64,000 bases of DNA from Anaerolineae bacterium (GTDB lineage Bacteria; Chloroflexota; Anaerolineae; Aggregatilineales; Aggregatilineaceae): contig JAHDLB010000012.1 in NCBI GenBank assembly GCA_018432315.1, positions 62,001 to 126,000 of the forward strand. The letters are read 5' to 3'. The notes beneath the pieces are model-generated. The model searched no databases, was not told the DNA's origin, and saw nothing but the letters and a program-made list of their open reading frames with translations. The translations under genes and the position numbers were made by a program. Below are positions 10,292 through 64,000 of this stretch, in pieces; position 1 is the first letter of the stretch, and each line of letters starts with the position of its first letter.

Positions 10292-10312
10292 CGCGCGAAC
10301 CGCTTCTCACAC

Positions 10313-10349
10313 AGGGCACCCGTGACTCCGGTCAGGGTGCCCTTTCGTT
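10313..10349 (+). terminator. Intrinsic terminator after copA
   Basis: AGGGCACCC at 10313-10321 pairs with GGGTGCCCT at 10335-10343, followed by TTCGTTT. The loop itself contains TGAC/GTCA, which can extend the stem. Confidence 0.8.
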
Positions 10350-10360
10350 TGCGGTGCGAT

Positions 10361-10366
10361 TATAAT
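10361..10366 (+). promoter_or_regulatory. Candidate -10 box of the DUF3267-like gene
   Basis: A consensus TATAAT stands 34 bp before the ATG at 10400. No good -35 is seen at 16-18 bp, where the copA terminator lies. Confidence 0.4.
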
Positions 10367-10399
10367 CAGGACACCGTCGCCCATTCACCGGAGCCTGGC

Positions 10400-45248: not shown

Positions 45249-45264
45249 CAAGCTATCCTCCGCT

Positions 45265-45978: not shown

Positions 45979-45996
45979 GATCGCCGTCCTGTCGCG

Positions 45997-46815
45997 TTAG
46001 GAATCCAGGAATCCGGTAACAAGCTCTTCTGCCGGCGCGCCCAGATAGGCCTCGATGACCAGCGGGTTTTGCTGGACCTCCTCGGGTGTTCCTTCGGCGA
46101 TCTTGCGCCCATAGTCGAGCACCGAGACTTGATCGGAGATGTTCATCACCACGCTCATGTCGTGCTCGATCAACAGGATAGTCAGATCGCGCTCGTCACG
46201 AAGGCGGCGAATGAAGCGCATGGTGGCTTCAGTCTCTTGCGGGTTCATGCCCGCCGTCGGCTCGTCGAGCAGCAGCAGCTTGGGGTCGCTCGCCAGCGCA
46301 CGCGCGATCTCCAGCCGCCGCTGGCTGCCATAGGGCAGATTGGTCGCCAGCGTGTCGCCGTCCTCGCCCAACCCCACGAAGTCCAGCAGCCGGTAGGCTT
46401 TTTCCAGCGCGACGTCTTCCTCCAGCCGGTTGACCGGCGGGCGCAGCATGGCGCCGACCGGGCTTGCCAGCAGGTTGGCGTGCGAGCCGACCATCACGTT
46501 TTCGAGCACGGTCATGCCGGCGAACAGGTGGATGTTCTGGTACGTGCGGGCGATCCCGCGCGCGGTCACCTGGTCGGGCCGCTCGCCCTGGATCGGGTGG
46601 CCGTCGAACCAGATCTCACCCTCCTCCGGCGTGTAAAACCCCGTGATGCAGTTGAAGAAAGTAGTCTTGCCCGCCCCGTTGGGTCCAATGACGCTGGCGA
46701 TCTGATTCTGACGGATCACAAGGTCCAGATCGCCGAGCGCGATCAGGCCGCCAAAGCGCTTGGTCACTTTTCTGGCTTCCAGCAGGATCGGGCGTTCGTT
46801 CGCTTGCTCCGTCAT
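45997..46815 (-). CDS. livG: Branched-chain amino-acid ABC importer ATPase LivG
   Basis: The product is 272 residues. Walker A is GPNGAGKTTFFNCITGFY, followed by the LivG phrase ARTYQNIHLFAGMTVLENVMVG; the signature is LPYGSQRRLEIARALA and Walker B LLLLDEPTAGMNPQET. The C-terminal GTPEEVQQNPLVIEAYLG is typical. Its ATG overlaps the livM stop by four bases (ATGA), and livF follows after 18 bp. Confidence 0.95.
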   Translation of the reverse strand: MTEQANERPILLEARKVTKRFGGLIALGDLDLVIRQNQIASVIGPNGAGKTTFFNCITGFYTPEEGEIWFDGHPIQGERPDQVTARGIARTYQNIHLFAGMTVLENVMVGSHANLLASPVGAMLRPPVNRLEEDVALEKAYRLLDFVGLGEDGDTLATNLPYGSQRRLEIARALASDPKLLLLDEPTAGMNPQETEATMRFIRRLRDERDLTILLIEHDMSVVMNISDQVSVLDYGRKIAEGTPEEVQQNPLVIEAYLGAPAEELVTGFLDS

Positions 46816-49172
46816 GGCGATCTATCCTCTTGTGAGACGTGGCGTTGGACCAGCGCGCGCGCGCGCTCCTGCAGTTGTGGCGTGGGCGCGGGCAGCAGGC
46901 CCTTGGGACGAATGATGACCATCGTCACCAGCAGGGCGCCAAAGACAAGGATACGATAGGTCGACAGCTCGCGCAGCACTTCGGGCACGCCGATGAGGGC
47001 AATCGCGCCCATGATCACGCCGGGGATGCTGCCCATGCCGCCGATGATCACCAGGCTCAGCACTTCGATCGAGACGTCGAGCCTGAAGTCGTTCGGGAAG
47101 ATGTTCCGCTGGCGGGCGGCGAACAGCACGCCGCCAATCCCGGCGAAGGCCGCGCCGATGGCGAACGCCGTCAGCTTCGACTGCACGAGGTTCACGCCCA
47201 TCGACTGGGCGATGTCCTCATCGCTCTTCATCGCGCTCCAGGCGCGCCCGGTCCGCGACTGCTTGAGCCGCGCCGAGAAGAAGGCCACCAGCCCTGCCCC
47301 CAGGAAAATGAGATACACCAGCGAGAGATACGACACCGGGCCGGACGCATTCTCCGGCAGCGGGCGCGGGATCTGCAGGATGCCCTGCGGGCCGCCGGTG
47401 AAGTCGCGCAGGTTGGTGAACAACAGCCGGATGATCTCGCCAAAGCCGAGCGTGACGATCGCCAGATAGTCACCGCGCAGGCGCAAGACCGGGATGCCGA
47501 GCATGATGCCCGACAGGCCGGAGACGATCACCCCGGCGAACAGCCCGATGAAGAACGGCGACGTATCGTCGAACAGGCGGCGGTACAGGCTCGAGTTGTC
47601 GAGCAGGATCGCAAACAGGAGGCTGGTGCTGATGGCGATCACCGTCAGCAGCAGGGTCACGCCGCCGGACGGGCGCGGATCGATATCCAGTAACTGGCGG
47701 CGGTCCGCAGCACGCCGCGCGCGCGCCGCCTGGCTGCGCCGCCACAGGTACAGGCCGCCCGCCACGATGGCGGTGGCGACGATCGCGGTCGTGAATACCC
47801 AGGCCGCGATGCGGATCACGGTCTCGTCGTTGCCCTCGAACTTCAACCCGGTCGGGTTGCCGCTGCCGTCTACCAGCACCTGGTTGGACGACAAAAACGC
47901 GTAGGTATACGCCCCCAACGCAAAGAACGCGACGTAGCCGAGGTCCAGCAGGCCGGCGTACCCGACCACGATGTTGAGGCCCAGCCCCAGCAGGACGTTG
48001 ATCCCCACCAGGGTGAGCACGTCGTTTTGATACTGGTCCAGGTACAGCGGCAGGATCAGGAGGATCGCCAGCGCCAGCGTGCCGGCCAACTGCGACTCGA
48101 AGCGCTCCGGCGTGCGCAGCGCGAAGTAATTCTGAACGACGGCGACCGCCGCAACGAGCAGCACGATCCCGACGCACAACAACTCGTTCCCGCGGGGCGA
48201 GCCGTCGGTCGCGATGAAATACCGCCCATCGCCGACGATGCGCCAGATCGCGAGGGCCGCAACACCGGCGACGAGCCCCGCGACGATCCCGACGCGCACC
48301 GGGTAGGCCAGCCCCCAGTCGACCGGCTGCGCGGCGCGGATCGCCACCAGCCCAAACAGGACGATCGCAAAGCCCAGCAGCAGTTGGACTTCCTGACCGC
48401 CGCCGCCAATGCGGATGATCGGATCGATGCCGTCCTGCCCTTTGGTCAGCCACAAGAACCCGAACAGCAACAGCGGCAGCAGCAGGACCAGCCAGTGCGC
48501 GATCAGGTTGTCCGACAGGTATCCGGCGGTCTGCGTGCGGTAGCGCCCCACGTTGGCGACGTTGGCGCCCCAGGCGATCAACGCGCCGGCCATGCCCACG
48601 ACGACGATCAGCAGCATGAAGCCGTAAAAGCCGCCGATGCCCAGGTTGAGGTCCACCCAGGCGTCGCCGGTCAGGCCAAGCTTGAGACGCAGCCCCGTCT
48701 CTGAATCGAACGTCAGCCGCATCGGATTGGTGCGCAGCTCGGCCCCTTCGGGATACTCGCCGGTCAGGATGTCCTTTTCCGGGTTGGGATGCAGCTCCGA
48801 TTCCGGCACGCCCGACAGCACGTTCATCGTCGTGAGCGACACGGCATCGAAGTAGGTTTTGACGCTGATCCCGTTGGCCTGCCAGCGGTTGATCAGCGAC
48901 ATGAACAGGAAGACGACCAGCGCCGCCACGACGGACAACGCCAGGGCGTTTTTCACGATGTAGCCGAACGTCTCGCCCGCATCGAACGCGCGGCGGGCCA
49001 GCCGGACGCCGAAGATCAGGACGATCAGCAGCAGCACGAACAGCGCCAGACTCTGGATGTTGATGGGGATGCCGATCAGGATCAGGAACAGCATGATCAA
49101 GCCCGCCACGAAGCCCGACGTAGCGCCCGGACGCATGGACCCGAGGACCTGTTGCAAGCGTGTGACTATCAT
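46812..49172 (-). CDS. livM: Enlarged LivM-type branched-chain amino-acid permease
   Basis: The product is 786 residues, roughly twice a normal LivM. Residues from about 370 on form the standard permease: VGINVLLGLGLNIVVGYAGLLDLGYVAFFALGAYTYAFL, the segment GIPVLRLRGDYLAIVTLGFGEIIRLL, GRAWSAMKSDEDIAQSMGVNL and FFARQ-type SLVIIGGMGSIPGVIMGAI. The first 370 residues have about eight hydrophobic helices (FVAGLIMLFLILIGIPINI onward) and a soluble stretch around 100-160. They do not look like a second permease. An extra hydrophilic insert also lies around residues 425-500. Both ends are tight to livH and livG. Confidence 0.88.
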   Translation of the reverse strand: MIVTRLQQVLGSMRPGATSGFVAGLIMLFLILIGIPINIQSLALFVLLLIVLIFGVRLARRAFDAGETFGYIVKNALALSVVAALVVFLFMSLINRWQANGISVKTYFDAVSLTTMNVLSGVPESELHPNPEKDILTGEYPEGAELRTNPMRLTFDSETGLRLKLGLTGDAWVDLNLGIGGFYGFMLLIVVVGMAGALIAWGANVANVGRYRTQTAGYLSDNLIAHWLVLLLPLLLFGFLWLTKGQDGIDPIIRIGGGGQEVQLLLGFAIVLFGLVAIRAAQPVDWGLAYPVRVGIVAGLVAGVAALAIWRIVGDGRYFIATDGSPRGNELLCVGIVLLVAAVAVVQNYFALRTPERFESQLAGTLALAILLILPLYLDQYQNDVLTLVGINVLLGLGLNIVVGYAGLLDLGYVAFFALGAYTYAFLSSNQVLVDGSGNPTGLKFEGNDETVIRIAAWVFTTAIVATAIVAGGLYLWRRSQAARARRAADRRQLLDIDPRPSGGVTLLLTVIAISTSLLFAILLDNSSLYRRLFDDTSPFFIGLFAGVIVSGLSGIMLGIPVLRLRGDYLAIVTLGFGEIIRLLFTNLRDFTGGPQGILQIPRPLPENASGPVSYLSLVYLIFLGAGLVAFFSARLKQSRTGRAWSAMKSDEDIAQSMGVNLVQSKLTAFAIGAAFAGIGGVLFAARQRNIFPNDFRLDVSIEVLSLVIIGGMGSIPGVIMGAIALIGVPEVLRELSTYRILVFGALLVTMVIIRPKGLLPAPTPQLQERARALVQRHVSQEDRSP

Positions 49173-49175
49173 GGC

Positions 49176-50720
49176 TTAGACCTTCTTTTCCGATAGCACT
49201 TCGCCGAAGATACCCGTCGGACGGAAGATCAGGACCATCACCAGGAGGCCGAAGGCGATCACGTCCTTGTACTCGGTCGGGATGCCCAACATGGTCGGCC
49301 CCAGCGCTTCGACCAGCCCCAGGAAGAAGCCGCCGAACATGGCGCCCGGAATGTTGCCGATGCCGCCCAGCACCGCCGCCGTGAAGGCTTTGAGGCCCGG
49401 AATGAACCCGGTGCGGAAGTTGAACGACAGGTTGTGGAACCCCATCATCACGCCCGCCGCGCCGGCCAGCAGCGCGCCGATGGCGAAGGTCACCACGATG
49501 ACCTGGTCCACGTTCACGCCCATCAGCGCGGCGGTGCTCTTGTCTTCAGCCACCGCCCGCATCGCGCGCCCGGTCTTGGATCGCTGGACGAACAGGTAGA
49601 GCAGGATCATGAGGACAATCGAAACGATGACGATGACCAGGCCGGTTTTCGTCACGGGGATCGTGCCCAGGCTGCCGATCTTGACGTTGAACGTGCCATC
49701 GATGAGGGTGGGACGCCGGTAGAACCGTTGCAGCGGGCCGAAGATATTCAGCATCGTCTGCTGCAGGAAGAACGAAGCACCAATCGCGCTGATGAGCGGC
49801 GTCAGGCGGGGCGCACCGCGCAGTGGCCGGTACGCGACCCGCTCCAGCGCGACGGCGGTCAGCATCGAAACCAGCATCCCGATCGCGACCACGAACAACA
49901 GCGCGACGACCGTGATCACGACCAGATGGACATGCGGCGCATAGGCACCCAGCGCGAGCACCAGGCCATAGCCGACCAGCGCGCCAATAATCACCCGGAC
50001 CGGCAGGCTGAACAGGGTCAGCAGCCAGGTCGAGCTGGTTTCGGGGCTGGCCTGCTTGCCGCGGCCATAGCGGGAGGCCAGCGTTTCGAGCGGCAGGAAA
50101 AGGAGGGCGATGAACAGCGGTAGCAACACCGTCGCTACGGTCGCAGCCCCCGCCTCGAAGACGCCGTTGCCCAGATCGGTCACGTACATCAAGGCAAACC
50201 ACCCGCCATACGTCCCCAGCACCAGGACCTCGCCATGGGCAAAATTGATCATGAACAGGATGCCGTAGACGAGCGTATACCCCAGCGCGACCAGCGCGTA
50301 CACGCCACCCAACACCAGCCCGTTGACCAGTTGCAGACCCCACAATGTCACCGAATACTCTTCGGCTTCGACCACGCTGTTCACACGGAACGCGAAGATC
50401 AGGAAGAGGACCACACCCGCATAATTGATCACCATACGCGAGGACGAGGCGCTTTCCGCGGCGCGCGCCCGGCTGACCAGGATCAGGATCAACGCGATGA
50501 GCCCCACGCCCGTATACACCCACAACGCGCCGGAAATCAGGTCTTGTATGGTTTTGAGTTCGTCGCCGGGAGGGGTGCCAAACAAACCGGAGGTACGAGC
50601 AATCACCCAAACAATCCATAGTAGTGCCAGCAGCGCCCCAATTCCGAAATACCGGCCACTCAGCCGATCATAATCAATATCCAGGCGCTCTAACCGGCGG
50701 GTTTGTGCTGCTTCCGCCAT
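49176..50720 (-). CDS. livH: Enlarged LivH-type branched-chain amino-acid permease
   Basis: The product is 514 residues, against about 300 for a usual LivH. The ATG at 50720 follows GGAGGAGA. The core has LVNGLVLGGVYALVALGYTLVYGILFMINFAHGEVLVLG, AYRPLRGAPRLTPLISAIGASFFLQ, GRAMRAVAEDKSTAALMGVN and FTAAVLGGIGNIPGAM, all normal LivH. An N-terminal part of about 140 residues with three hydrophobic helices and an insertion of about 110 residues with three more (residues about 215-300) are extra. These expansions parallel those in LivM. Confidence 0.9.
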   Translation of the reverse strand: MAEAAQTRRLERLDIDYDRLSGRYFGIGALLALLWIVWVIARTSGLFGTPPGDELKTIQDLISGALWVYTGVGLIALILILVSRARAAESASSSRMVINYAGVVLFLIFAFRVNSVVEAEEYSVTLWGLQLVNGLVLGGVYALVALGYTLVYGILFMINFAHGEVLVLGTYGGWFALMYVTDLGNGVFEAGAATVATVLLPLFIALLFLPLETLASRYGRGKQASPETSSTWLLTLFSLPVRVIIGALVGYGLVLALGAYAPHVHLVVITVVALLFVVAIGMLVSMLTAVALERVAYRPLRGAPRLTPLISAIGASFFLQQTMLNIFGPLQRFYRRPTLIDGTFNVKIGSLGTIPVTKTGLVIVIVSIVLMILLYLFVQRSKTGRAMRAVAEDKSTAALMGVNVDQVIVVTFAIGALLAGAAGVMMGFHNLSFNFRTGFIPGLKAFTAAVLGGIGNIPGAMFGGFFLGLVEALGPTMLGIPTEYKDVIAFGLLVMVLIFRPTGIFGEVLSEKKV

Positions 50721-50901
50721 ATTCTCCTCCATCCAGGACGCTGCCCGGCAACAAGCTGCCAGGCGGACGGAATTCATCGACCATGTATGAAAAGGGGCCC
50801 GTTGTCGTGCGTCAACGAGCGCGCGTCTATATAAGTGGTCGAAATTGTACCAGCGCCATCCAAAAATACAATCGAGGCGCTGGCACAAAGAACCCAAACA
50901 G

Positions 50902-50931
50902 AAGGGAAGGCGCGGGGCCTTCCCTTTGGTG
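50902..50931 (-). terminator. Hairpin between livK and livH
   Basis: AAGGGAAGGC pairs with GCCTTCCCTT over a 5-base loop. On the minus strand it is followed by CTGTTTGGG, a weak T-tract. It lies just after the livK stop and probably lets more binding protein be made than permease, as in other liv operons. Confidence 0.65.
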
Positions 50932-50933
50932 CT

Positions 50934-52157
50934 TTATTCGGCTTCCATTTCCAGCAGATCTTCGGGCACTTCCACATTAACCCATTCGCCATCTTCCACC
51001 AGGTTGATGGCGATCGAGCCAGCGCCGCAGTCGCCCTTCTCGTCGCAGGTCAGCAAACCGGTCAGGCCGTCGTAGTCCGTGGTGTTGCGCACCGCATCGA
51101 TCAGCTCCTCGCGGTCGATCACCAGGTTGCCCGCATCATCGACCACCGATACCTCTTCGATCGCGTTCAGGAGCATCTTGGTCGAGTCGTAGGCGTGGTA
51201 GTGGAACGGGCCCAGGTCGGACGGCAGAACGTCGAACATCTCTTCATATGCATCGACGAACGCTTCCAGCCGCTCCGGATCGGTTTTGGGCTGCTCCGCA
51301 AACGCGGCGTAAACACCCTCAGCCGCGTCGCCAGCGCCCGAGATCAGGGCCTCGCCGTAAACGCCGTCATCGCTGAAGAAGATCACATCCTGCAGGCCGA
51401 CGTCGTTCTTCTGCGGGACCAGCAGCACAGCCTGCTGCACATAGCCGCCGAAGTAGATCGCCTCAGGCGCCATTGGAACCAGACCGGTCAGCACCGGGCG
51501 GAAGTCCTGATCATCGACGTTGATGCCCTGGAAGGCCACGACCTCGCCACCCAGCTCGGTGAACGTGTCGCGGACCACTTCGGCCAGGCCCAGGCCGTAG
51601 GTGTCGTTGTCATGCAGCACGGCGAGCGTACGAACGCCGAGGACCTTGTACATGTAGTTCGCAGCAACGACGCCCTGCACGTCGTCACGGAAGGCGACGC
51701 GGTTCATCACGTCCAGGCCGCGCTCGGTGACGCCAGCCGCCGTGGCGCTGGGGGACATCATCGGAATGCGCGCTTCTTCGTACACGTCCGAGGCCGACAC
51801 CGTGGCGCCCGAGCAGATGTGGCCGACAACCGCCACGACCTGCGGGTCCGACGCGATGCGGTTGGCGACGGTGGTGGCATCATCGCCGGTGCAGCGGTCG
51901 TCTTCGACCTGGATCTCAACCTGGAAACCCTTGATGCCGCCCGCCTCGTTCACCTCGGCGACGGCAACCTGGCCCGCCTGGGAAATATCGAGGCCAAACT
52001 CAGGAATGGCGTTGGTCAGGTCGGTGGCGAGCGCCAGCTTGATCGGATCGCCGGGGGCGATGACGACCGTGCCCTCGTCCTGGGCCTGAACCGGGGTGAT
52101 GGCAGCAACCAACAAAACGATCAGCAAAACGAAACGGAGAGACTTTATTTGACGCAT
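50934..52157 (-). CDS. livK: Branched-chain amino-acid-type substrate-binding protein
   Basis: The product is 407 residues. The signal peptide MRQIKSLRFVLLIVLLVAAITPVQA is cleaved before QDEG; no lipobox is present. Family phrases are IKLALATDLTNAIPEFGLDISQAGQVAVAEVNEAGGIKG, VVAVVGHICSGATVSASDVYEEARIPMMSPSATA, NRVAFRDDVQGVVAANY and TLAVLHDNDTYGLGLAE. Type I periplasmic proteins of this kind bind leucine, isoleucine, valine or other amides; the ligand is not certain. It is the first gene of livKHMGF. Confidence 0.93.
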   Translation of the reverse strand: MRQIKSLRFVLLIVLLVAAITPVQAQDEGTVVIAPGDPIKLALATDLTNAIPEFGLDISQAGQVAVAEVNEAGGIKGFQVEIQVEDDRCTGDDATTVANRIASDPQVVAVVGHICSGATVSASDVYEEARIPMMSPSATAAGVTERGLDVMNRVAFRDDVQGVVAANYMYKVLGVRTLAVLHDNDTYGLGLAEVVRDTFTELGGEVVAFQGINVDDQDFRPVLTGLVPMAPEAIYFGGYVQQAVLLVPQKNDVGLQDVIFFSDDGVYGEALISGAGDAAEGVYAAFAEQPKTDPERLEAFVDAYEEMFDVLPSDLGPFHYHAYDSTKMLLNAIEEVSVVDDAGNLVIDREELIDAVRNTTDYDGLTGLLTCDEKGDCGAGSIAINLVEDGEWVNVEVPEDLLEMEAE

Positions 52158-52349
52158 GGTGTGACTTCTCCTCAGCTAATGCAATTCCATAACGAACGAA
52201 GGCGATCGGGTTGAGGACAACTCAACCCACCGTTGAAGCCAGATGCTGCATGTTTCGACCGTCTGTGATCCTATACACACCTCCCTCTCATGGGTACCGC
52301 TGCCCCTAGTATGCAGTGAGAAGGCTGTAGTGCTAGAAGGCGATAAAAT

Positions 52350-52379
52350 ATGATAAAGGATTCTCTCAACTTTTGTCAA
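52350..52379 (-). promoter_or_regulatory. Promoter of the liv operon
   Basis: On the minus strand TTGACA (52379-52374) and TATCAT (52355-52350) are 18 bp apart. Confidence 0.7.
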
Positions 52380-52539
52380 ACTGAGGGAATTACTGCTGCG
52401 GAATTCCGAACTCAAATCCCCAATGACCGGTTATGATAGCGGATTATACGGCGTGTGCCGCCCATGCTTCTGGTCAAAATGCACAATCAGCAGGGTGCGT
52501 TTCGCCCAATCTGCACCGGAAACCGCCACCTGCCGGATC

Positions 52540-52566
52540 GAAAAGAGGGCGCGACTCGGCGCCCTC
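52540..52566 (-). terminator. Terminator of the ACP-ligase-AsnB-NadE-like cassette
   Basis: An 8-bp stem GAGGGCGC with GCGCCCTC, six-base loop, followed on the minus strand by TTTTC. Confidence 0.75.
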
Positions 52567-52600
52567 CGAAATTTACTCGAAACCGCGTGCGCGGCGACGG

Positions 52601-53608
52601 TCAGTCCGGCAGTCCTACCGGCTCCCCCTCGCCTGCCGGGGCCAGCTCCACCGGAGCCATGCGCAGGTAGTCGGTGGTGCGCTGCTTGCGCAGGAAATCG
52701 TTGAAGGCGCGCTGCACCTGCTCCTCGGTGAGGTCCATGGCGGCGGCGACTTCGGGCACCGGGACGTCATGCTCCAGCGCATACCACAGCATGTCCATCG
52801 TCTTGAACGGCAGGCGGAAGAAAAACTCCTCCTGAGTCTGGTGGGCGCTGTACGTGTCGGAGGTAGGGGGCCGCTGCCGGACCTCCTCCGGGACGTCGAG
52901 GTATTCGGCAAGCTGGTAGATCTGCGTCTTGAACAGGTGGATGATGGGCCGCACGTCGACGCCGCCATCACCCCACTTGACGAAAAAGCCCTGGCCGTGC
53001 TCGTTCTTGTTCGCCGTGCCGACCACCGCGTAGTTGCGCAGCTCGGCGTGGTAGTAGAGCATCGACATGCGCGTGCGCTGCTTGAAGTTGGACGCCGCGA
53101 CGATCTGCAGGTACTCCTTGAGCGGCAGGCGCTTGTTCTTCTCCTCACCGTCGGGCGTGACGATGGTCAGCGAGAAGACGTTGAGCGTGTCGTCTTCCAG
53201 GATATTGCTCGGCAGCACCAGCTTGGCTTTGTAGCCGGCTGCCGCGTCGTATTCGGGAAACACGCGCCGGATCGCCTCGTCGCGCCGCTGGTAACAGCCG
53301 AAGCCATCCAGCACCGGCGTGATCACTTCCAGCACCGGCTCGACGCCGTAGTGCCCCGCGACCGTGCGCGCCAGCCGCTCGCTGTCGGATTCCGAGTCTT
53401 TCTCCGGCAGCATGAGCGCCACGACCCGCTCCGGGCCAAACGCCCGCGCGCACAACGCCAACACGACCGACGAGTCAACGCCGCCGCTGATGCCCATCAC
53501 CGCGCCGCGACGGCGCATGACTTTCCCCACCGTGTGGCGCATCATCGAGACGATGCGCTCGGTTTCGGCGGCGGGGTCGATTTCGAGTACGTGTGGACCA
53601 AAGACCAT
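52601..53608 (-). CDS. NAD synthase-like ATP-pyrophosphatase
   Basis: The product is 335 residues from the ATG at 53608 (GGAGCG upstream); the frame is open further back only over asnB. The ATP-PPase loop is MGISGGVDSSVVLAL. GTANKNEHGQGFFVKWGDGGVDVRPI is the NadE ammonia/adenylate site, and KTQIYQLAEYLDVPEEVRQRPPTSDTYS is the NadE-type end, but SAHQTQEEFFFRLPF replaces the usual GQTDE phrase and a C-terminal helical extension of about 60 residues is added. There is no glutaminase domain. Being last in an operon with AsnB, ligase and ACP, it may be a repurposed amide-forming enzyme rather than the housekeeping NAD synthase. Confidence 0.8.
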   Translation of the reverse strand: MVFGPHVLEIDPAAETERIVSMMRHTVGKVMRRRGAVMGISGGVDSSVVLALCARAFGPERVVALMLPEKDSESDSERLARTVAGHYGVEPVLEVITPVLDGFGCYQRRDEAIRRVFPEYDAAAGYKAKLVLPSNILEDDTLNVFSLTIVTPDGEEKNKRLPLKEYLQIVAASNFKQRTRMSMLYYHAELRNYAVVGTANKNEHGQGFFVKWGDGGVDVRPIIHLFKTQIYQLAEYLDVPEEVRQRPPTSDTYSAHQTQEEFFFRLPFKTMDMLWYALEHDVPVPEVAAAMDLTEEQVQRAFNDFLRKQRTTDYLRMAPVELAPAGEGEPVGLPD

Positions 53609-53610
53609 CG

Positions 53611-55611
53611 TTACGCTCCTTGTGGAACCCCCTGCCCCACGCAGACCTTCACATCGTCCGCGGCAGACAGAGGAGCCGGCATTCTGAAATTGCTCACGAA
53701 ATGTTGGTGGACCAACTGGCTGGACAGCACGCCAACCAGGGCCATGTCGTCGGTTTCGCCGATCGGCATACCGCGCTCGATCTTCTTGACGAGCTGCCCG
53801 ATGGCCGGCGCGCTGAACAGACCGGTCGCGGCCAGTTGGCCCGGCGAGAGCAGCTCGCGCACGTAATCGGGCGTCGCCTCGTTGAAGAAGCTGCGGTGAA
53901 TGGGCGCGCGGTAGGGCCGCTTGGGCCGCCGCCAGATGTCGTCCGGAATCCATTCTGAGGCCACGCGCTTGAGCAGGTATTTCTCGGTCAGGCCGCGCAG
54001 CTTGAGGCTCGGCGCGACCTGGTTGGCGAACTCGACCACGCGATAATCCAGGAACGGGAACCGGCCCTCGACCGAATGCGCCATCCCCACCCGGTCGCCT
54101 TGCGCCGACAGCAGGTACTGCGCCAGGAAGATCGAGATCTCCAGGTACTGCGCACGGTGCAGCGGCGCCCACTCCATGAAGCGCTCCGGGTAGGCGATCG
54201 CCCGCGTGGACGGGTCGTCCTGGGCGTAGCGCTCCAAGACGGCATGGCGCAGCGCATCGGAGAAGAAACGCTTGGTCCGGCCCGTGTTGTGCCAGCGCAG
54301 CGCGTGCGAGTAGTCGAGGCGATCGGTATCGGTCAGGTGCTGGCTGAAGAAGGCGGTCAGGTAGGCCCCGCTGCCGCTGCTGAGGCTGGCGATGTAGGGA
54401 TAAAGCCGCTTGAGAATCAGCGGGCGAATCGCCGAGTCCGGTTGGCGCGCCCAGAAGCGGCGGATCTTGGCCTCCTTGAAGATGTTGTACCCGGCCAGGA
54501 ACTCATCCGCGCCCTCGCCGGTCATCACCACCTTGAAGCGGCTGTCGTTCACCAGCCTGGAGAGCAAGAACATCGGGGCTGGTGACGTGCGCATGATCGG
54601 CGCCTCGGTGTGCCAGATCACGTCCGGGAACACGCGGCCAATGTCGCCGTGCGTCACGTACACGACCTGGTGATCGGTCCCCAGGAAGTCCGCCATCTGG
54701 CGCTGGTAAGCGCTCTCGTCGAAGTCCGGATCGCTGAAAGCAATCGAGAACGTATCGAGCCGGTTGTTGGTGTAGTTGCGGATGATCGCGGACGTCGTCG
54801 AGGAGTCCAGCCCCCCGCTGAGGTACGCGCCGACCGGCACATCCGCCCGCAGCCGAATCTGGGTGGCGTCGATCAGCAGATCGCGGAACTCCGCCACGAC
54901 ATCTTCGACCGGGCGGGCCGGGGGCGGCTCGTGCGGGAACGTGAGCTGCCAGTACGGCTCCAGGCGGATCTCGCCGTTGCGGGCCAGCAGGAAGTGCCCC
55001 GGCGGCACGTCGTAGATGTTCTTGAATATCGTGTTGGGCGACAGCGTCGACCAGTAGGTGAAGATCTGGTCGAGCGCCAGCGGGTCCAGCTCCGCCTCGA
55101 CGCGCGGATCGGCCAGAATGGCTTTGATCTCCGAGCCGAAGATCAGCGCGCCATCCGCGACGGTGTAGTACAGCGGGCGGATGCCGACCCGGTCGCGGGC
55201 CATGAACAGCGTCTCGCTGCGCGTGTCCCAGATCGCGAAGGCGAACTGCCCGTTCAGATAGTCCAGACAGCGCGGCCCGTAATCCTCATACAGGTGCAGG
55301 ATCACTTCGGTGTCGGTGTGGGTTTCGAAACGGTGACCGCGCGCTTCCAGGCCGGGCCGCAGCTCGACGTAGTTGAAGACCTCGCCATTGTAGACAATCC
55401 ACAGCGTGCCGTCTTCGTTGGTGATCGGCTGCTGGCCCGTGCTCAGGTCGAGAATGCTCAGGCGGGCGTTGCCCAGGCCGACGTGCTGGTCGCGGTAGAT
55501 GCCGAACTGGTCCGGGCCGCGGTGGCGAATCATCGCCAGCATCTGGCGCAGGTTCAGTTCCTCGATGGGGTGCTGTGATGTCAGGTTGAGTGTTCCAACG
55601 ATTCCGCACAT
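53611..55611 (-). CDS. asnB: Asparagine synthetase, glutamine-hydrolysing
   Basis: The product is 666 residues. Cys2 of MCGIVGTLNL is the glutaminase nucleophile; the class II amidotransferase domain follows to about 210, with RGPDQFGIY, YNGEVFNY and FAIWD. The synthetase domain has the ATP loop AYLSGGLDSSTTSAII and VVMTGEGADEFLAGYNIFK. The length is slightly above normal AsnB. Such enzymes also make amides in cell-wall, sugar and antibiotic pathways. It overlaps the ligase gene by one base (TAATG) and lies 2 bp before the NadE-like gene, so all are translated together. Confidence 0.93.
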   Translation of the reverse strand: MCGIVGTLNLTSQHPIEELNLRQMLAMIRHRGPDQFGIYRDQHVGLGNARLSILDLSTGQQPITNEDGTLWIVYNGEVFNYVELRPGLEARGHRFETHTDTEVILHLYEDYGPRCLDYLNGQFAFAIWDTRSETLFMARDRVGIRPLYYTVADGALIFGSEIKAILADPRVEAELDPLALDQIFTYWSTLSPNTIFKNIYDVPPGHFLLARNGEIRLEPYWQLTFPHEPPPARPVEDVVAEFRDLLIDATQIRLRADVPVGAYLSGGLDSSTTSAIIRNYTNNRLDTFSIAFSDPDFDESAYQRQMADFLGTDHQVVYVTHGDIGRVFPDVIWHTEAPIMRTSPAPMFLLSRLVNDSRFKVVMTGEGADEFLAGYNIFKEAKIRRFWARQPDSAIRPLILKRLYPYIASLSSGSGAYLTAFFSQHLTDTDRLDYSHALRWHNTGRTKRFFSDALRHAVLERYAQDDPSTRAIAYPERFMEWAPLHRAQYLEISIFLAQYLLSAQGDRVGMAHSVEGRFPFLDYRVVEFANQVAPSLKLRGLTEKYLLKRVASEWIPDDIWRRPKRPYRAPIHRSFFNEATPDYVRELLSPGQLAATGLFSAPAIGQLVKKIERGMPIGETDDMALVGVLSSQLVHQHFVSNFRMPAPLSAADDVKVCVGQGVPQGA

Positions 55612-57143
55612 TATTTCAGCCCTGTCTTCTTGATCTTGCCGGACGACGTCTTGGGTAGCTCCTCACGGAACTCGACGACTTTGGGGATCATGTAGTCTTC
55701 GAGATGGGCGCGGCAGTGGGCCAGGACGTCTTTCTCGGTCAGGTGATTGCCCTGGATGACCACGAACGCCTTGACGGCCTCGCCCAGGATCGGGTCGGGC
55801 ACGCCGACCACCGCCGCCTCGACCACGTTGGGGATCTGGTACAGGATGTTTTCGACCTCTTTGGGCGCCACTTTTTCGCCGCGGCTCTTGATGATGTCGT
55901 CCTTCCGGCCCAGGAAATACAGGTATCCCTCGTCGTCCATGCGGAACAGGTCGCCGCTGTAGCACACGCGCTCGCCGGGCAGCGGGCCGGGGCGATAGCG
56001 CTCGGCGGTCGCTTCGGGCGCGTTCCAGTAGCCGCGCATCACGTGCCGCCCGCGGATCACCAACTCGCCGATTTCGCCCGGACCCAGCCGCTGGCCGTTC
56101 TCGTCCTCCAGCCAGACCTCGGTGCCGGGGATGGCGATCCCCACCGAGCCGGGCCGGACGTCGATCTGGTCGGGCGGCAGGTACAGGGTGCGCTTGGTCT
56201 CAGTGAGGCCGTACATCGAGACGATGGTCACCCAGGGGAACTTGCGGCGAAATTCCTGGATGTGGCTGGGCGGCAGCGCGGCGGCGGTGTTGCTGATGTA
56301 CCGCAGGCTCGACAGGTCGAACGCGCTCAGGTCCATCTGCAGCAGCATCGCCATGATCGTCGGCACGATAGGGAAGCCGGTCGCGCGCTCCTGCTCGATG
56401 AGCTTGAGCACCGCCGCCGGATAGGTAAAGCCCTTTTCGAGCACGAGCGTGCCGCCGAATTTGAAGACCATCAGCAGTTGGTACAGCCCGTAGTCGAACG
56501 AGAGCGGAATCACGCTCAGCACGATATCGTCCTCGACGTTTTCGAGGTACTGGATGATCGAGCCGGCAGCAAACACCACGTTGCTGTGATCGCTCATCAC
56601 GCCTTTAGGATCGCCCGTGCTGCCCGACGTGTAAATCAGGCAGGCCAGGTCGAGATCGACGTTGACCTGGGGCGGGCGCTCCGCCGGATAGCCGGCCTGG
56701 ACGGCGTCGAACGCGAGGCACCCCGCGCGGCCCTCGGCAGCTGTGCCCGCATTCTTGCCGCACAGGACCCGCGTGCGCAGCGACGGCACCTCTGCCGCCA
56801 CGCCGTCGGACATCCCGGCTTTGCGCGCGTCGGTGATCAGCGCGACGGCCTCGCAGTTGTTGAGGATATACGCGAGCTTGTCCTGCTTGGTCGTATGATT
56901 GATGAAGACGAAAACGCCGCCCGCCTTGAGCGTGGCGAAGATGCTCACCACCGCCTCGACGGTGTTGTTGAGATAGAGTCCCACGCGGTCGCCCCGCCCC
57001 ACGCCGCGATCGCGGAGCGCATGGGCGAGCCGGTTCGCCATCGCGTCGATCTGGGCATAGGTCAACCGCTGGTTATCACAGACAAGCGCCACCTTGTCGG
57101 GTGAGCGCTCGGCACTGGCATGCAGAAAGTCCTGAACGAGCAT
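55611..57143 (-). CDS. AMP-dependent acyl- or amino-acid ligase
   Basis: The product is 510 residues and belongs to the adenylate-forming enzymes. The P-loop-like A3 motif is LIYTSGSTGDPKGVMSDHSN, A5 is MYGLTETKRTL, A7 is YSGDLFRMDDEGYLYFLGRKDDIIKSRGEKVAP and the late lysine for adenylation is in SSGKIKKTGLK. Length and pattern resemble DltA-like and acyl-ACP ligases. The gene for a carrier protein is just upstream, so the natural product is probably an acyl or aminoacyl thioester on that ACP. The substrate is unknown. Confidence 0.9.
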   Translation of the reverse strand: MLVQDFLHASAERSPDKVALVCDNQRLTYAQIDAMANRLAHALRDRGVGRGDRVGLYLNNTVEAVVSIFATLKAGGVFVFINHTTKQDKLAYILNNCEAVALITDARKAGMSDGVAAEVPSLRTRVLCGKNAGTAAEGRAGCLAFDAVQAGYPAERPPQVNVDLDLACLIYTSGSTGDPKGVMSDHSNVVFAAGSIIQYLENVEDDIVLSVIPLSFDYGLYQLLMVFKFGGTLVLEKGFTYPAAVLKLIEQERATGFPIVPTIMAMLLQMDLSAFDLSSLRYISNTAAALPPSHIQEFRRKFPWVTIVSMYGLTETKRTLYLPPDQIDVRPGSVGIAIPGTEVWLEDENGQRLGPGEIGELVIRGRHVMRGYWNAPEATAERYRPGPLPGERVCYSGDLFRMDDEGYLYFLGRKDDIIKSRGEKVAPKEVENILYQIPNVVEAAVVGVPDPILGEAVKAFVVIQGNHLTEKDVLAHCRAHLEDYMIPKVVEFREELPKTSSGKIKKTGLK

Positions 57144-57227
57144 TGGTCACCCCCCGCAGATACTCTCATGAACAGAATGATGGGGGAGCCGTCGCCCTCG
57201 GTGAAGAAGGCAGCAGCCCAGGCAAAA

Positions 57228-57488
57228 TCACGCAGCGGCGGAACCGTTCAGCCGGGAGCGAATGTAGTGGGCCAGCTTGTCAACCGAATCAAAGTTGTCC
57301 GGAGTGATTTCGTGATCATCCACCGTGATGCCGTACTTCTCTTCGACGAACAGGGCCAGTTCCATCACCGCCACCGAGTCGACAATGCCGTTCTCCAGGA
57401 AGGAATCCTCGTTGTCATATTCGAACGAGTCGCCGCTAAAGAGCAAAAACTGGTTCAGATACTCGCGGATCTCGGTTTCAACGCTCAT
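57228..57488 (-). CDS. Acyl carrier protein
   Basis: The product is 86 residues. I took the ATG at 57488 with a GGAGA site upstream. The phosphopantetheine attachment site is S38 in GIVDSVAVMELAL, and the remainder (EKYGITVDDHEITPDNFDSVDKLAHYIRSRL) is a four-helix acidic carrier protein. It is more like specialised carriers (DltC or pathway-specific ACPs) than the fatty-acid AcpP, which has DSLD at this site. It begins the cassette with the ligase, AsnB and NadE-like genes. Confidence 0.92.
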   Translation of the reverse strand: MSVETEIREYLNQFLLFSGDSFEYDNEDSFLENGIVDSVAVMELALFVEEKYGITVDDHEITPDNFDSVDKLAHYIRSRLNGSAAA

Positions 57489-57533
57489 CTTGGTTGATCT
57501 CCTGACGTTTTGATTCGTAGTCTCACACAAGAA

Positions 57534-57560
57534 ATTCTAGCGAATTAGTTTAAAAATCAA
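57534..57560 (-). promoter_or_regulatory. Candidate promoter of the ACP cassette
   Basis: On the minus strand TAGAAT (57539-57534) with TTGATT (57560-57555), spaced 15 bp, in an AT-rich stretch about 45 bp before the ACP ATG. The spacing is short. Confidence 0.4.
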
Positions 57561-57610
57561 GTAAAAAACTAGTTAACAAGACGAAGCGGTATCGAGAATA
57601 AACAATAGAG

Positions 57611-57648
57611 AAAAAAACAAGACGGCACTGCGATTTAACAATGCCGTC
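57611..57648 (-). terminator. Terminator of the cohesin gene
   Basis: GACGGCA and TGCCGTC make a 7-bp stem around 14 bases; on the minus strand it is followed by TTGTTTTTTT. Confidence 0.8.
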
Positions 57649-57672
57649 CTGCGCGCCTCGCCAGAAAGCGGG

Positions 57673-58494
57673 TTACGTTCGCCGCCGCGAGCGCGTGATG
57701 GCGACAAGCGCCCCGATGATCACGACGGCCACCACGGCCAGGATCCCCGCGACAGCCAGGACCAGCGTGTCGCGCGAATCGTCGTCCGCCTCGGCTGCCG
57801 GCTCGCTCTCTTCCGCCGCCGGGATGCCGGTGACGTTCTCCAGCGTGGGCAGTTGCGTCGGCAGCTCTGCGACCGCTTCCGCCGGGCCGACGGGTGTGCT
57901 GGTTGGGGCGGGCGTGGGCGTGGCTTCCACCGGCGGCGGAACCCGCTCGCCGGTGACGTTCAACTCCAGGAGCACCGGCGTGAATGGCACCGCCTCCGGG
58001 TCGGACGCTTCGCGCTCGTCGCCCTCGCCGGAAAACGTGACCGTCCGGATGTTGGCCCGGCGAAACGACAGCGTTGTGGTGCCGGGCGCGACCGGATAGA
58101 TGCGAAACGTACCCAGCACGCCGCTGCCGCTCAGAATGTCCGCCGGGGCGAGCTGCGACACGGCGTAACTGATCACGTTGTTGTCGACGAAGTTGAGCGC
58201 GTCGAGCGCCGGCCCCTCCGAGAAGAACGAACCGATGCTCACCGGCTGGCCGGACACGGTGCCCATTACGTACAGAATGGCCGGATCGTAGACGATCTCA
58301 GCCGACGCGAGCCACAACTCCGGCACGTCACGCACCTCGATGCGGATGGTGTATTCCTGCCCGGTTTGCAGGTCGGTGGTATCGGCCTGCAAGCTCAGGT
58401 ACGTCGTTTGCTCTTGCGCCGAAGCCGGAAGCCCGGCCAGCAGCACCGCAAGCCCGCCCAGCACGATCACGAGCATCAGCCGTCTGACGCGCAT
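57673..58494 (-). CDS. Membrane-anchored cohesin-domain-like protein
   Basis: The product is 273 residues. A signal peptide ends in LPASAQ. Residues about 30-180 are a beta-sandwich with cohesin-like phrases: LQTGQEYTIRIEVRDVPELWLASAEIVYDPAILYV and GTFRIYPVAPGTTTLSFRRANIRTVTF. A Pro/Thr-rich linker (about 185-215) and an acidic stretch follow, then one transmembrane helix (TLVLAVAGILAVVAVVIIGALVAI) and a basic tail RSRRRT. This puts the cohesin outside, tied to the membrane, as a receptor. The next two genes upstream encode secreted proteins with dockerin repeats. The cohesin call is by sequence pattern. Confidence 0.75.
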   Translation of the reverse strand: MRVRRLMLVIVLGGLAVLLAGLPASAQEQTTYLSLQADTTDLQTGQEYTIRIEVRDVPELWLASAEIVYDPAILYVMGTVSGQPVSIGSFFSEGPALDALNFVDNNVISYAVSQLAPADILSGSGVLGTFRIYPVAPGTTTLSFRRANIRTVTFSGEGDEREASDPEAVPFTPVLLELNVTGERVPPPVEATPTPAPTSTPVGPAEAVAELPTQLPTLENVTGIPAAEESEPAAEADDDSRDTLVLAVAGILAVVAVVIIGALVAITRSRRRT

Positions 58495-58593
58495 TCGAAT
58501 GCCCTCATTCTTCTACCTTACGCTGCGTAGTATACGACCGGACGGGGGAGAAGGCTCTCCCCCGCCGGATGCTGCCCGGTTCTGCAGCCGTGC

Positions 58594-60960
58594 CTATTGA
58601 ACCCATTCGACCGTGTTGCGCAGACCGGCGCGCCAGTTGGGCATGTGATCCCAGTTACCATCCCATGCCTCCGGGTTGCCGTGTCCCTCGCTGATGCCCC
58701 AGTACATCCACTGGCTCGACCCAAAATCGTACGGGTCGGGATGCCATTCGGGAATGCCGCTGTTATTGAGATGACCGTTGCGGAAGCAGTTACCACCGTT
58801 CCAGTCCCACGGGCACCGGCTCTCGTAGAAGACGATGTGGCCGAAGCTGCTCACGTGATAGAAGTCGACGTCCGTCGACAGCAGCGCGTAAACCGTGCCG
58901 GGGTCCCCGCCATCGACATCATACTCGACGTTCATGTGATAGGGTGCGGCCGCCCCGCCATGCGCCCCGCCATAGAACGGCGGAACGGTCGGCCCACCCG
59001 GCCCCCATTCGATTTCCGCAAAGCGCAGTGTGCGCTGGCCGGTGCCGGGATCCGTGTAGCGATAGAACAACTGGTGCCCGGTGCCATTCTCGTCATAGCC
59101 GGAGACACGGGGCATGTCCGCGCCGAACGGAATCCGGGTCTGGGCTTCGTCGAACCAGGACCACCAACCCGCGTCGACCCCGGCAATCCAACTGATCCCC
59201 AGGCTGTACCCTTCCGGATCGCCCACGTCCACCGCGAACATGAACGTATCGTTGTCCAGCCATGCCGGTGGGAAGACCGACACCACCAGGTCACTGATGC
59301 CCAGGTTCGCGCCGTTCGAGTCGATCACGCAGAAGTGGCTGGTGAACTCGCCCTTGCTGTTCGTGTTGTTGGCCCACTCTCGCCAGATCCAGGTGCCCCA
59401 TTGATCGGAACCGGTATTCTTCTCGCCGCACATGAAGGCGAGCTTCGAGCCGTCCGGCGACCAGGAAGGCGCCAGCGCGTCGTAGCGCCAGTTGCGCGGC
59501 GTGATCGGCTTGGCGCCGCTGCCGTCGGCATTCGCCACGTACAGCACGTAGGCCGTGTTAACGTCCCACGGAGCAGGCGTTTTGCTTCCCTCGGCCTTGA
59601 TGTAGGCCAGCTTCGAGCCGTCCGGCGACAGTGTGGCCCAGTAGATCGGATTCGACTTGCTGCGGCTGAGCTCACCCAGGATCATCTCGCCGTGCAGCGG
59701 GGTCAACCAGACGCGGCTGTCCTGCATGAGATCGTGTTGGCGCGGCATGCTGATCAGCATGTGCCGGGCGTCTTCGTCCTCGCCCCGGTACCAGTTCGCC
59801 GCCACGATCGCCAGGTCTTCTTCGTTGGTGAGGCCATTACCGTTAGCATCGCCAGCCGTGGATTGGACGTTCCAGTTACCCGTCACCAGCGCGAGGTCAT
59901 CTTCGTCGATGCGCTGCGGGATACCCGCTACCCGGTCCAGATTCCCCGAGGACAGCACAACCGGCTGGAACTGGTAGGACTGGCCCAGGAGGTGGATGTC
60001 GGTCCACGCTTGCAGGTGCAGGTCCGGATCGTAAACCGGATCGCCCGCTTCGGCAGTTGTCACGTTGCCGAAGAAATTGCAGTTGTAGTAGCCTTTGTCT
60101 CGCAGCCCATTGATCGCGAAGTTCCCCTTGCGGTCGGTGCGCGTCTTGTACTCATCACCCACGCCACCCGGATCGTAGACGCAGTTCACGCCGATTCCGT
60201 CGTGGCGCTTGAGCGCCTGGTAGGTCACATTCCCCGTGATCGAATAGCCTGACATGACGACCAGGTCGTTCGGGCGCTGGTACTTGGGCCTGGCGACATC
60301 CTTGCCGTTGTAGTCCAGAAAACGGGTCTTGCAGGTGATCTTCATCGGCTTGCTGGAAAACGTAGCCGGGTTCTGCGGGCGCACCCGGAAGCGAATCCGC
60401 GCCACGAGGTCGGTTTGCGCCTGCCCCCAGCGCCCGTACCGCCGCCCGCCAAACGCCGCAGCGGCGAAGGAGATCGTGCCGGAGTTGGGCGCGCTGCCGC
60501 CCTGGGCCGCGTTCGCCAGATGAACGGGCGCCGGGACCATCGTGTACTCGCCGCCATACGCCCCCAGGCCACCCCACACCGGGCCCATCTGGACCATCGG
60601 CCAGTCGTCGCCGGGATCGTCCGTCGGCGGGTTCACGCTGCCATCGTCCCAGTGGAACCCTTCGAGCAAGGTCGAGTCGTACTTGCATTCGACCTCAACC
60701 GCCGAATACTCGACCGAAGCGGTCGCGAACAGCTCAAGCTCGACATAGCGATAGTCGTCACCGGGGTTGTAGCTGGGATACGCGTCCGCACCGGCGCCAG
60801 CATCCAACGAGGTCAACTGGGCCGGCGGGCGCCAGGTCGGCGTCACCGTGATGCCGGGCGGGTCGACAGCCAGTGCTGGCCGGGCCGCCGGCACCAACCC
60901 CACCACCAGCGTCACCAGTGCGACAGCCCCCACAAAACGCAAGAACTTTGGATGTTTCAT
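58594..60960 (-). CDS. Secreted dockerin protein with TolB-like beta-propeller
   Basis: The product is 788 residues with a signal peptide (ARPALA cleavage). Residues about 40-210 are a beta-sandwich of the cohesin-like type (VELELFATASVEYSAVEVECKYDSTLLEGF); about 235-330 may be a carboxypeptidase-like repeat (GYSITGNVTYQALKRHDGIGVNC...). Residues about 345-388 are a dockerin-like pair: IDEDDLALVTGNW and GDANGNGLTNEEDLAIVAANW, which bind calcium. From about 400 on PD40/TolB-type propeller blades appear (LSPDGSKLAYIK, SWSPDGSKLAFMCG). It would bind the cohesin next door and hold an unknown ligand. Confidence 0.8.
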   Translation of the reverse strand: MKHPKFLRFVGAVALVTLVVGLVPAARPALAVDPPGITVTPTWRPPAQLTSLDAGAGADAYPSYNPGDDYRYVELELFATASVEYSAVEVECKYDSTLLEGFHWDDGSVNPPTDDPGDDWPMVQMGPVWGGLGAYGGEYTMVPAPVHLANAAQGGSAPNSGTISFAAAAFGGRRYGRWGQAQTDLVARIRFRVRPQNPATFSSKPMKITCKTRFLDYNGKDVARPKYQRPNDLVVMSGYSITGNVTYQALKRHDGIGVNCVYDPGGVGDEYKTRTDRKGNFAINGLRDKGYYNCNFFGNVTTAEAGDPVYDPDLHLQAWTDIHLLGQSYQFQPVVLSSGNLDRVAGIPQRIDEDDLALVTGNWNVQSTAGDANGNGLTNEEDLAIVAANWYRGEDEDARHMLISMPRQHDLMQDSRVWLTPLHGEMILGELSRSKSNPIYWATLSPDGSKLAYIKAEGSKTPAPWDVNTAYVLYVANADGSGAKPITPRNWRYDALAPSWSPDGSKLAFMCGEKNTGSDQWGTWIWREWANNTNSKGEFTSHFCVIDSNGANLGISDLVVSVFPPAWLDNDTFMFAVDVGDPEGYSLGISWIAGVDAGWWSWFDEAQTRIPFGADMPRVSGYDENGTGHQLFYRYTDPGTGQRTLRFAEIEWGPGGPTVPPFYGGAHGGAAAPYHMNVEYDVDGGDPGTVYALLSTDVDFYHVSSFGHIVFYESRCPWDWNGGNCFRNGHLNNSGIPEWHPDPYDFGSSQWMYWGISEGHGNPEAWDGNWDHMPNWRAGLRNTVEWVQ

Positions 60961-61101
60961 CGATTTCCCCCTTAAAGCTGATAGGTATACAGCAACTGCA
61001 CGTTGTCGTTCATGATCTCAGTCTGTCAAATCGGGTCACACGCGGCTATCACGCCGCCTAAGCCAACTCTCCTTTCGCCTGTCCAGGCTCGTCCGTCCCG
61101 G

Positions 61102-63264: not shown

Positions 63265-63483
63265 CGCCGTTACCAGCCCCTTTTTAGACCGGTTCCCCCT
63301 ACGTAGGTCAATTTATCACGTATGTTGTTCAAAAGTCAATAATCCATTGATGCCGATCGCACCCTCTTAACAATGTTTGAGTTCAATTTCACAATATTTC
63401 CCGGCGATTTTTTACAAGATTTTACATGTGCGCTATCCTCGACTCACGATCCGACGCCCTTACCCAACAGGTGAAACACGCCG
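63265..63483. other. Divergent intergenic region between dockerin gene and gatB
   Basis: AT-rich upstream region holding the gatB promoter. No ORF or strong dyad is seen. Confidence 0.5.
63411..63439 (+). promoter_or_regulatory. Candidate promoter of gatB
   Basis: TTTACA at 63411-63416 and TATCCT at 63434-63439 with 17 bp spacing, 45 bp before the ATG. Confidence 0.55.
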
Positions 63484-64000
63484 ATGGTTGCCTACGAACC
63501 CGTGATTGGCCTCGAAGTCCACGCCGAACTCCTCACCGAATCGAAGATGTTCTGCACCTGTGCCGTGGTCGACAGCACGTCCGCCGAGCCGAATACGGTC
63601 GTTTGCCCGGTCTGCCTGGCGATGCCCGGCGTCCTGCCGGTGATCAACCGGAAGGCCGTCGAGTTCGGGCTGATGGTCGGGCTGGCGCTGAACTGCGAGA
63701 TCCCCGCGTTCAACCAGTTCGCCCGCAAGAGCTATTTCTATCCGGACCTGCCCAAAGGCTACCAGATCAGCCAGTACGAATACCCGCTGGCGATCAACGG
63801 CTGGCTGGAGATCGACCTGCCGGATGGCTCGACCAAGCGGATCGGCATCCGGCGCGCGCATCTCGAAGAGGACACCGGCAAGCTGACTCACGTCGACGGG
63901 CACAGCCTGGTCGATCTCAACCGCGCCGGGGTGCCCCTGCTGGAGATCGTGTCGGAGGCCGACATCCGCAGCGCGGAAGAGGCCGAAGCCTACGCCCGTA
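63484..64000 (+). CDS. gatB: Aspartyl/glutamyl-tRNA amidotransferase subunit B, N-terminal part
   Basis: The first 172 codons are in the window and the gene continues past its end. It begins [21 protein letters not shown], with the GatB-specific [21 protein letters not shown], the cysteine pairs for zinc (CTC and CPVC), [24 protein letters not shown], and [36 protein letters not shown]. This subunit binds the misacylated tRNA and, with GatA and GatC, makes Gln-tRNA or Asn-tRNA. A CAGGTGA site precedes the ATG. gatA and gatC are not in the window. Confidence 0.96.

Follow-up and report, generated by a model that had tools for sequence, protein, structure and literature searches.

What does a bacterium make with a carrier protein, an adenylate-forming ligase and two enzymes of amide-forming families when these are encoded side by side? 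The question is raised by a four-gene cassette in the genome of an Anaerolineae bacterium (GenBank assembly GCA_018432315.1, 5.69 Mb). The window, i.e. the whole stretch of 64,000 nucleotides that was analysed, comprises positions 62001-126000 of contig JAHDLB010000012.1, and all coordinates without a locus or contig number are those of the window. The cassette lies on the minus strand at 57488-52601 and is transcribed in the order acyl carrier protein (ACP), AMP-ligase, AsnB-type enzyme, NadE-like enzyme:

57228..57488, minus strand: ACP of 86 aa, type II and peptidyl-carrier-like (PF00550)
55611..57143, minus strand: adenylate-forming ligase of 510 aa, 'FDYGLYQLL' class (PF00501 + PF13193)
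53611..55611, minus strand: AsnB-type glutamine-hydrolysing amidotransferase of 666 aa (GATase_7 + Asn_synthase, TIGR01536)
52601..53608, minus strand: NadE-like ATP-pyrophosphatase of 335 aa counted from the ATG at 53608 (NF002048/PRK00876 subfamily)

The ligase and AsnB genes overlap by 1 base, and 2 bases separate AsnB from the NadE-like gene. An initial annotation, made from the letters of the DNA, had described four tightly packed genes at 52601-57488 with these identities, and both the coordinates and the domain matches agree with it. For the searches, a NadE-like query beginning six residues past the ATG at 53608 was used.

We propose that the cassette is a carrier-tethered amidation module, in which an acid is loaded on the ACP and then amidated, and we give this general mechanism a probability of about 55%. 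The ligase would activate a small acid as its adenylate and attach this acid to the phosphopantetheine arm of the carrier, as is reported for the Sinorhizobium meliloti homologue. AsnB, with glutamine, and the NadE-like enzyme, with ammonia, would then adenylate the carboxylate or carboxylates of the carrier-bound acyl group, giving a carboxamide. Homology and gene linkage suggest that a HemK/PrmC-type enzyme dedicated to this task may N-methylate the amide in some lineages. The amidated acyl-ACP would finally serve as acyl donor for lineage-specific transferases of the AT3, SGNH, FemAB/GNAT or nonribosomal peptide synthetase (NRPS) condensation/thioesterase type, which would often sit among polysaccharide genes.

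The grouping of the four genes is conserved and not a matter of chance. Family NF002048, to which the NadE-like protein belongs (PRK00876, 'NAD(+) synthase'; 475 bits, cut-off 313), was found over its cut-off in 9 of the 301 Chloroflexota genomes searched, the window's included. With larger flanks these nine loci contained the ACP in all cases, AsnB in eight (not L043) and the ligase in eight (not L042, a short contig). In a scan of GTDB genomes the best-scoring 80 of 443 stretches encoding a NadE-like relative were kept, and after two duplicates were dropped the final set contained 87 loci. The kept loci are biased: they are top scorers, and most come from metagenome-assembled genomes (MAGs), so that binning errors may have given some of them a wrong phylum label. 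With these labels the NadE-like gene was present in 11 named phyla, and all three partners were near it in 59 of the 87 loci, from 9 named phyla; in the NadE-like tree the nearest named relatives of the window's protein were Chloroflexota. When we restricted the count to the 42 loci (window included) in which the flanks on either side of the NadE-like gene reach 6.5 kb or more, AsnB was present in 39, the ligase in 38, the ACP in 40 and all three in 35. The co-occurrence in other genomes that the initial annotation had suggested looking for was thus found, and the conserved synteny bears out its view of the ligase/carrier pair and the two amide-forming enzymes as one unit. As a control, 22 canonical nadE loci with flanks of approx. 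1.5 kb were inspected and none carried AsnB, ACP or ligase; when nine loci of the subfamily were trimmed to this length, eight had AsnB, three the ACP and one the ligase.

The cassette was also found on plasmids. Among 72,556 plasmid records 116 contained the NadE-like gene, with Sinorhizobium, Azospirillum, Ensifer, Shinella, Mesorhizobium, Rhizobium, Nitratireductor and Roseateles as hosts. All four genes were clustered in each of the nine plasmid regions fetched, and in all five of these that carry annotation nadE is annotated as NAD(+) synthase.

In a housekeeping explanation, the NadE-like protein would be a true second NAD synthase standing beside an unrelated ligase, ACP and AsnB. The protein matches PF02540 with 166 bits and passes the cut-off of the nadE family TIGR00552, and an alignment of the subfamily shows that the catalytic residues are kept (SGGxDS together with N168, R172, R174, Y179, T192, N194, E197, D208 and K221). 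Against this explanation stand the synteny, seen in none of the 22 controls, the full set in nine phyla, and the other NAD synthases of the same genomes. In the window's genome a canonical NadE is encoded on the same contig (C51:22376-23086, PF02540, 251 bits), and PF02540 gave two more matches elsewhere, both weak (27 bits). A PF02540 match elsewhere (E 1e-15) was likewise detected in 24 of 26 other cassette genomes. We consider the housekeeping explanation highly improbable and rejected it because of the synteny and the separate canonical NAD synthase. The initial annotation had regarded the cassette as a possible chance grouping if the NadE-like gene were the only NAD synthase of its genome in a neighbourhood that is not conserved; since a second, canonical NAD synthase is present and the neighbourhood is conserved, this reservation falls away.

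The NadE-like enzyme and canonical NadE belong to the same family and share the ATP-pyrophosphatase residues, and they differ in an insertion, an altered loop, their neighbourhood and the co-residence of a canonical NadE. The insertion of approx. 50 residues lies within residues ~96-166 of the window's protein. The canonical loop DLWxGQTDExELG has been lost in the subfamily, where DTYSAxxTQEEFFFR is found instead. The cut-offs of the full-protein NadE equivalogs were not reached (NF010587, 179 vs 255; NF001979, 97 vs 250). We concluded from these comparisons that the NadE-like enzyme is probably not there to make NAD.

Which acid could be loaded on the carrier? The ACP matched PF00550 with 24.6 bits (cut-off 20.8) and contains the motif ENGIVDS; six of its eight matches among PDB sequences are named peptidyl or aminoacyl carrier proteins. 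The ligase matched PF00501 with 328 bits, and also PF13193. Both marks of an NRPS-type amino-acid-activating ligase are present, as in the alignment D217 falls on the Asp of the 'FD' motif of NRPSs, and the C-terminal Lys is K503. In GrsA, the Asp of the FD motif binds the alpha-amino group. In ligases with this Asp (D class) the aligned pocket is nearly constant, D-Y-Y-P-[ILMV]-N-M-R-T-K, at positions which we take, from known motifs, to be those of the pocket. Together, the Asp and the peptidyl-type carrier suggest that most lineages, that of the window among them, probably load an amino acid, presumably one with a second carboxylate. Over 54 loci whose ligases are of the D, S or G kind the pairwise protein distances of the NadE-like enzyme, AsnB and the ligase were correlated (Mantel r 0.78, 0.58 and 0.77; none of 999 permutations as high in each test), a result that could also come from shared descent alone.

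The AsnB-type protein begins with MCG, contains the Pfam domains GATase_7 and Asn_synthase and scores over the cut-off of TIGR01536. The checked residues of both half-sites, glutaminase and synthetase, vary hardly or not at all across 72 sequences. With these residues kept, AsnB should make an amide with glutamine as the nitrogen source.

If AsnB makes the amide, the role of the second enzyme has to be considered. It could act on the same carbon, so that AsnB would make the carboxamide and the NadE-like enzyme would adenylate this amide and convert it to an amidine, with NH3, or to a nitrile. Such amide-adenylating chemistry is carried out by other PP-loop enzymes of the QueC and WbpG type. 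Sequential chemistry would explain why two enzymes are kept, and it would suit both the changed substrate side of the NadE-like enzyme, with its new loop and large insertion, and the position of AsnB, which ends at most 300 nt upstream of the NadE-like gene in 70 of the 76 loci that have AsnB. The NadE-like protein also matched QueC weakly (E 8e-4, below the cut-off), which probably reflects the shared PP-loop only. In L043, L069 and L097 a NadE-like copy occurs and no AsnB is encoded within 6.5 kb; this appears to speak against a sequence of reactions that starts with AsnB, and we regard such a sequence as unlikely. Alternatively, AsnB would be an ammonia supplier only and the NadE-like enzyme would make the amide, the pair being equivalent to a split glutamine-dependent NadE. 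This would agree with the Pfam domains, as the NadE-like protein has no glutaminase domain and AsnB brings one. The synthetase site of AsnB would be idle in such a pair, and its checked residues are (nearly) invariant in the 72 sequences; we therefore find a mere supply of ammonia improbable.

A further gene bears on the product of the proposed amidation. A HemK/PrmC-like protein with the motif NPPY was encoded within 8 kb in 13 of the 87 loci, and a methyltransferase of this type was also present in three of the nine alphaproteobacterial plasmid loci. By profile match the PrmC family carries the label glutamine N5-methyltransferase. In a tree, 16 linked copies from seven phyla were separated from nine housekeeping copies with a branch support of 100/99. 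Eight genomes were chosen for having a linked copy, and all eight hold one housekeeping and one cassette-linked strong PrmC match. In the window's genome one PrmC-like gene was detected at E 1e-15, the housekeeping one only. A dedicated paralog that accompanies the cassette in seven phyla supports an amide product, and we regard it as the strongest independent hint of the amide.

For the transfer of the amidated acyl group we followed four transferase classes; assignments beyond the scanned representatives rest on sequence clusters and on hidden Markov models built in this analysis. Within 8 kb, SGNH proteins were encoded in 23, AT3 in 12, FemAB in 8 and NRPS in 7 of the 87 loci. Some of the genes stand very close to the cassette: an AT3 membrane acyltransferase at most 60 nt from the NadE-like gene in seven loci, an SGNH/GDSL-like protein at the same distance in nine, and FemAB directly 3' of the NadE-like gene in four Chloroflexota loci. 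In one Verrucomicrobiota locus a condensation-adenylation-peptidyl carrier protein (C-A-PCP) NRPS gene overlaps the NadE-like gene. One sequence cluster, C-PCP-thioesterase (C-PCP-TE) where scanned (L106), occurs within 8 kb in the five cyanobacterial loci, and a protein of this cluster adjoins the NadE-like gene in one Acidobacteriota locus. Glycosyltransferases were near the cassette in 24 of the 87 loci, and Wzy, Wzz and sugar enzymes in some. From these neighbourhoods the cassette may be read as a module that donates acyl groups and whose acceptors are interchangeable. The initial annotation had noted no transferase or condensation domain in the cassette; none is linked to it at the window, and the statement cannot be extended to the relatives, which have varied acyltransferases or NRPS domains nearby. 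For its other suggestion, that the cassette itself aminates a surface sugar, we found no direct evidence, although polysaccharide genes surround many of the relatives.

In the window's assembly we found neither AT3 (PF01757) nor a condensation domain (PF00668), and FemAB/GNAT-like PF13480 was detected at ten places, none on the cassette contig. No partner could be assigned in this genome in searches for PrmC, AT3, condensation and FemAB; SGNH was not searched. A FemAB- or SGNH-type transferase encoded elsewhere would therefore be the first candidate.

Put together, these observations lead to a more far-reaching proposal, which we advance tentatively. The NF002048 subfamily, labelled 'NAD synthase', would not be an NAD synthase; it would be a carrier-dependent enzyme that acts with AsnB to form an amide, amidine or nitrile group on an amino acid borne by the ACP. 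As an acyl-donor module present in at least nine phyla, the cassette would then supply surface glycans and peptides, via interchangeable transferases, with a hitherto unseen acyl group, a carboxamide that is in some cases N-methylated.

Several findings weigh against the amidation module. The model does not explain the need for two amidating enzymes. The NadE-like protein exceeds the domain cut-off of TIGR00552 clearly (156.8 vs 63.65), and in two of the 26 other cassette genomes, both MAGs, no other NAD synthase match was found. Among the 42 well-flanked loci AsnB is missing in three, the ligase in four and the ACP in two. The Asp on which the amino acid argument depends is not universal: in the 68 best ligases the residue is D in 48, C in 9, S in 8, I in 2 and G in 1, and it is G in three of five alphaproteobacterial ligases inspected. 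Therefore either the acid differs in some lineages or the argument from the Asp is weak. No HemK/PrmC-type methyltransferase is encoded within 8 kb in 74 of the 87 loci, and over the same distance 43 of the 87, that of the window among them, lack all four transferase classes.

Some loci showed peculiarities of their own. Two copies of the NadE-like subfamily type were found in one locus (L097:4176-5138 and 9980-10945) and also in the genome of L069 (G314), which suggests further specialisation. Two ligase classes are adjacent within one cassette in L037:4390-7734 (= L103) and L100:7245-10372. An aldo/keto reductase is encoded near the cassette in L076 and L117, with a fragment in L074, and another one in L125 and L126; no clear link between its presence and the ligase class was found. 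Two or three FemAB-like genes follow the NadE-like gene in L077, L080 and L110 (Ignavibacteriota/Bacteroidota). On a plasmid of Mesorhizobium sp. AR07 (L124:6223-9960) the reading frame of an A-PCP-TE protein continues, with no stop codon, into the NadE-like gene; as the junction resembles a frameshift, we did not score it as a fusion. A conserved protein of ~370 aa adjoins the cassette in five of the nine alphaproteobacterial plasmid loci; it has no significant Pfam match, and its similarity to GNAT is weak and insignificant.

These five copies and two putative terminators at the window's cassette are located as follows:

L127:4105-5214, L129:4083-5225, L130:8012-9127, L131:3099-4208 and L132:8998-10113: conserved protein of ~370 aa
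52540..52567, minus strand: stem-loop and U-run, possible operon terminator (-18.2 kcal/mol, z -3.1)
57617..57652, minus strand: terminator-like site in the intergenic stretch that precedes the ACP gene (consensus terminator scan)

The stem-loop 3' of the NadE-like gene (~52567-52540) has nine pairs and a short U-run, and is not among the sites listed by the consensus terminator scan. Terminator-like sites of that scan, including the one at 57652-57617, were not commoner than in shuffled DNA (3 found vs 3.3 expected). No promoter-like site was found upstream of the ACP gene in the scan. Further upstream, at 57673-63264 on the minus strand, three predicted secreted proteins are encoded. By eye, those of 788 aa and 720 aa contain dockerin-like EF-hand repeats (DANGNGLTNEEDLA, DLNADGCIGPADLA) and the one of 273 aa is cohesin-like; Pfam gave PD40 alone, in the 788-aa protein. 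Just downstream, at 45265-52157 on the minus strand, lies a branched-chain amino-acid type ATP-binding cassette (ABC) transporter set with a substrate-binding protein (PF13458) and, judged by eye, a pair of permeases and a pair of ATPases. Neither the amino-acid-type transporter nor the predicted secreted proteins gave a lead on the role of the cassette.

If the proposal is true, databases give a widespread gene set a wrong name (NAD(+) synthase for its nadE), the NadE fold has a new role in the amidation of carrier-bound acids, and a new chemical group is predicted on bacterial surface molecules or peptides. In the open-access literature we found no paper describing the gene combination, the cross-phylum module, a dedicated amide methyltransferase or the interchangeable transferases.

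Parts of the cassette resemble known systems. The exosortase-A (XrtA/PEP-CTERM) exopolysaccharide set has a ligase, an amidotransferase and FemAB, and the cassette might be a member of it. The nearest curated family of the window's ligase, and its best NCBIfam match, is ligase_PEP_1 (TIGR03098), and for AsnB eps_aminotran_1 (TIGR03108) is second after TIGR01536; in some loci FemAB neighbours match the XrtA FemAB family weakly. Both families are below their cut-offs (494 vs 592 and 467 vs 817), and exosortase (PF09721), sought in 25 genomes with the window's among them, was detected in only 7 and not in the window's. We rejected this membership on the scores and on the absence of exosortase from the window's genome, and its probability appears very small. 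Unlike the XrtA/PEP-CTERM set, the cassette includes a NadE-like enzyme. The kinship of ligase and AsnB to the XrtA enzymes may reflect similar chemistry.

A second likeness is to the glutarimide polyketide sesbanimide. There, an asparagine synthase with its own ACP (SbnJ/SbnK) is proposed to amidate ACP-bound malonate (PMC8262917). The window likewise has an AsnB with intact glutaminase and synthetase sites near a discrete ACP, and differs from SbnJ/SbnK, as described there, by the additional ligase and NadE-like enzyme. No polyketide synthase was recognised by eye among the open reading frames of window positions 45000-64000.

The closest known system is found in S. meliloti. On pSymB (L126) the genes asnB, ACP, ligase and nadE lie together, with products 50, 29, 54 and 49% identical to those of the window, and an operon of this kind is thereby not new. 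A paper from 2009 on S. meliloti reportedly lists asnB and nadE in the operon. The record of L126 carries no annotation; because the replicon, the ACP/ligase adjacency and the DST motif agree, we infer that it is the operon of the ACP SMb20651 and the ligase SMb20650. SMb20650 is reported to be cotranscribed with SMb20651, to yield acylated SMb20651 when expressed in E. coli, and not to replace FadD (PMC7232532). Other papers list smb20650 among genes down-regulated under Myxococcus attack (PMC10315480), ascribe a DST motif to the SMb20651 ACP (PMC12391972) and call for more work on what SMb20651 does (PMC5686131). The 'unknown product' of the initial annotation is thus not wholly unknown, as the same four genes occur on pSymB, where others have tested the ligase/ACP step. 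Since S. meliloti is a tractable model organism, its operon makes the proposed amidation directly testable. Both loci have the same four genes clustered and a ligase with FDYGLYQLL, and they differ in gene order, asnB-ACP-ligase-nadE in L126 vs ACP-ligase-asnB-nadE in the window, and in the ACP motif, which is DST in L126 and DSV in the window.

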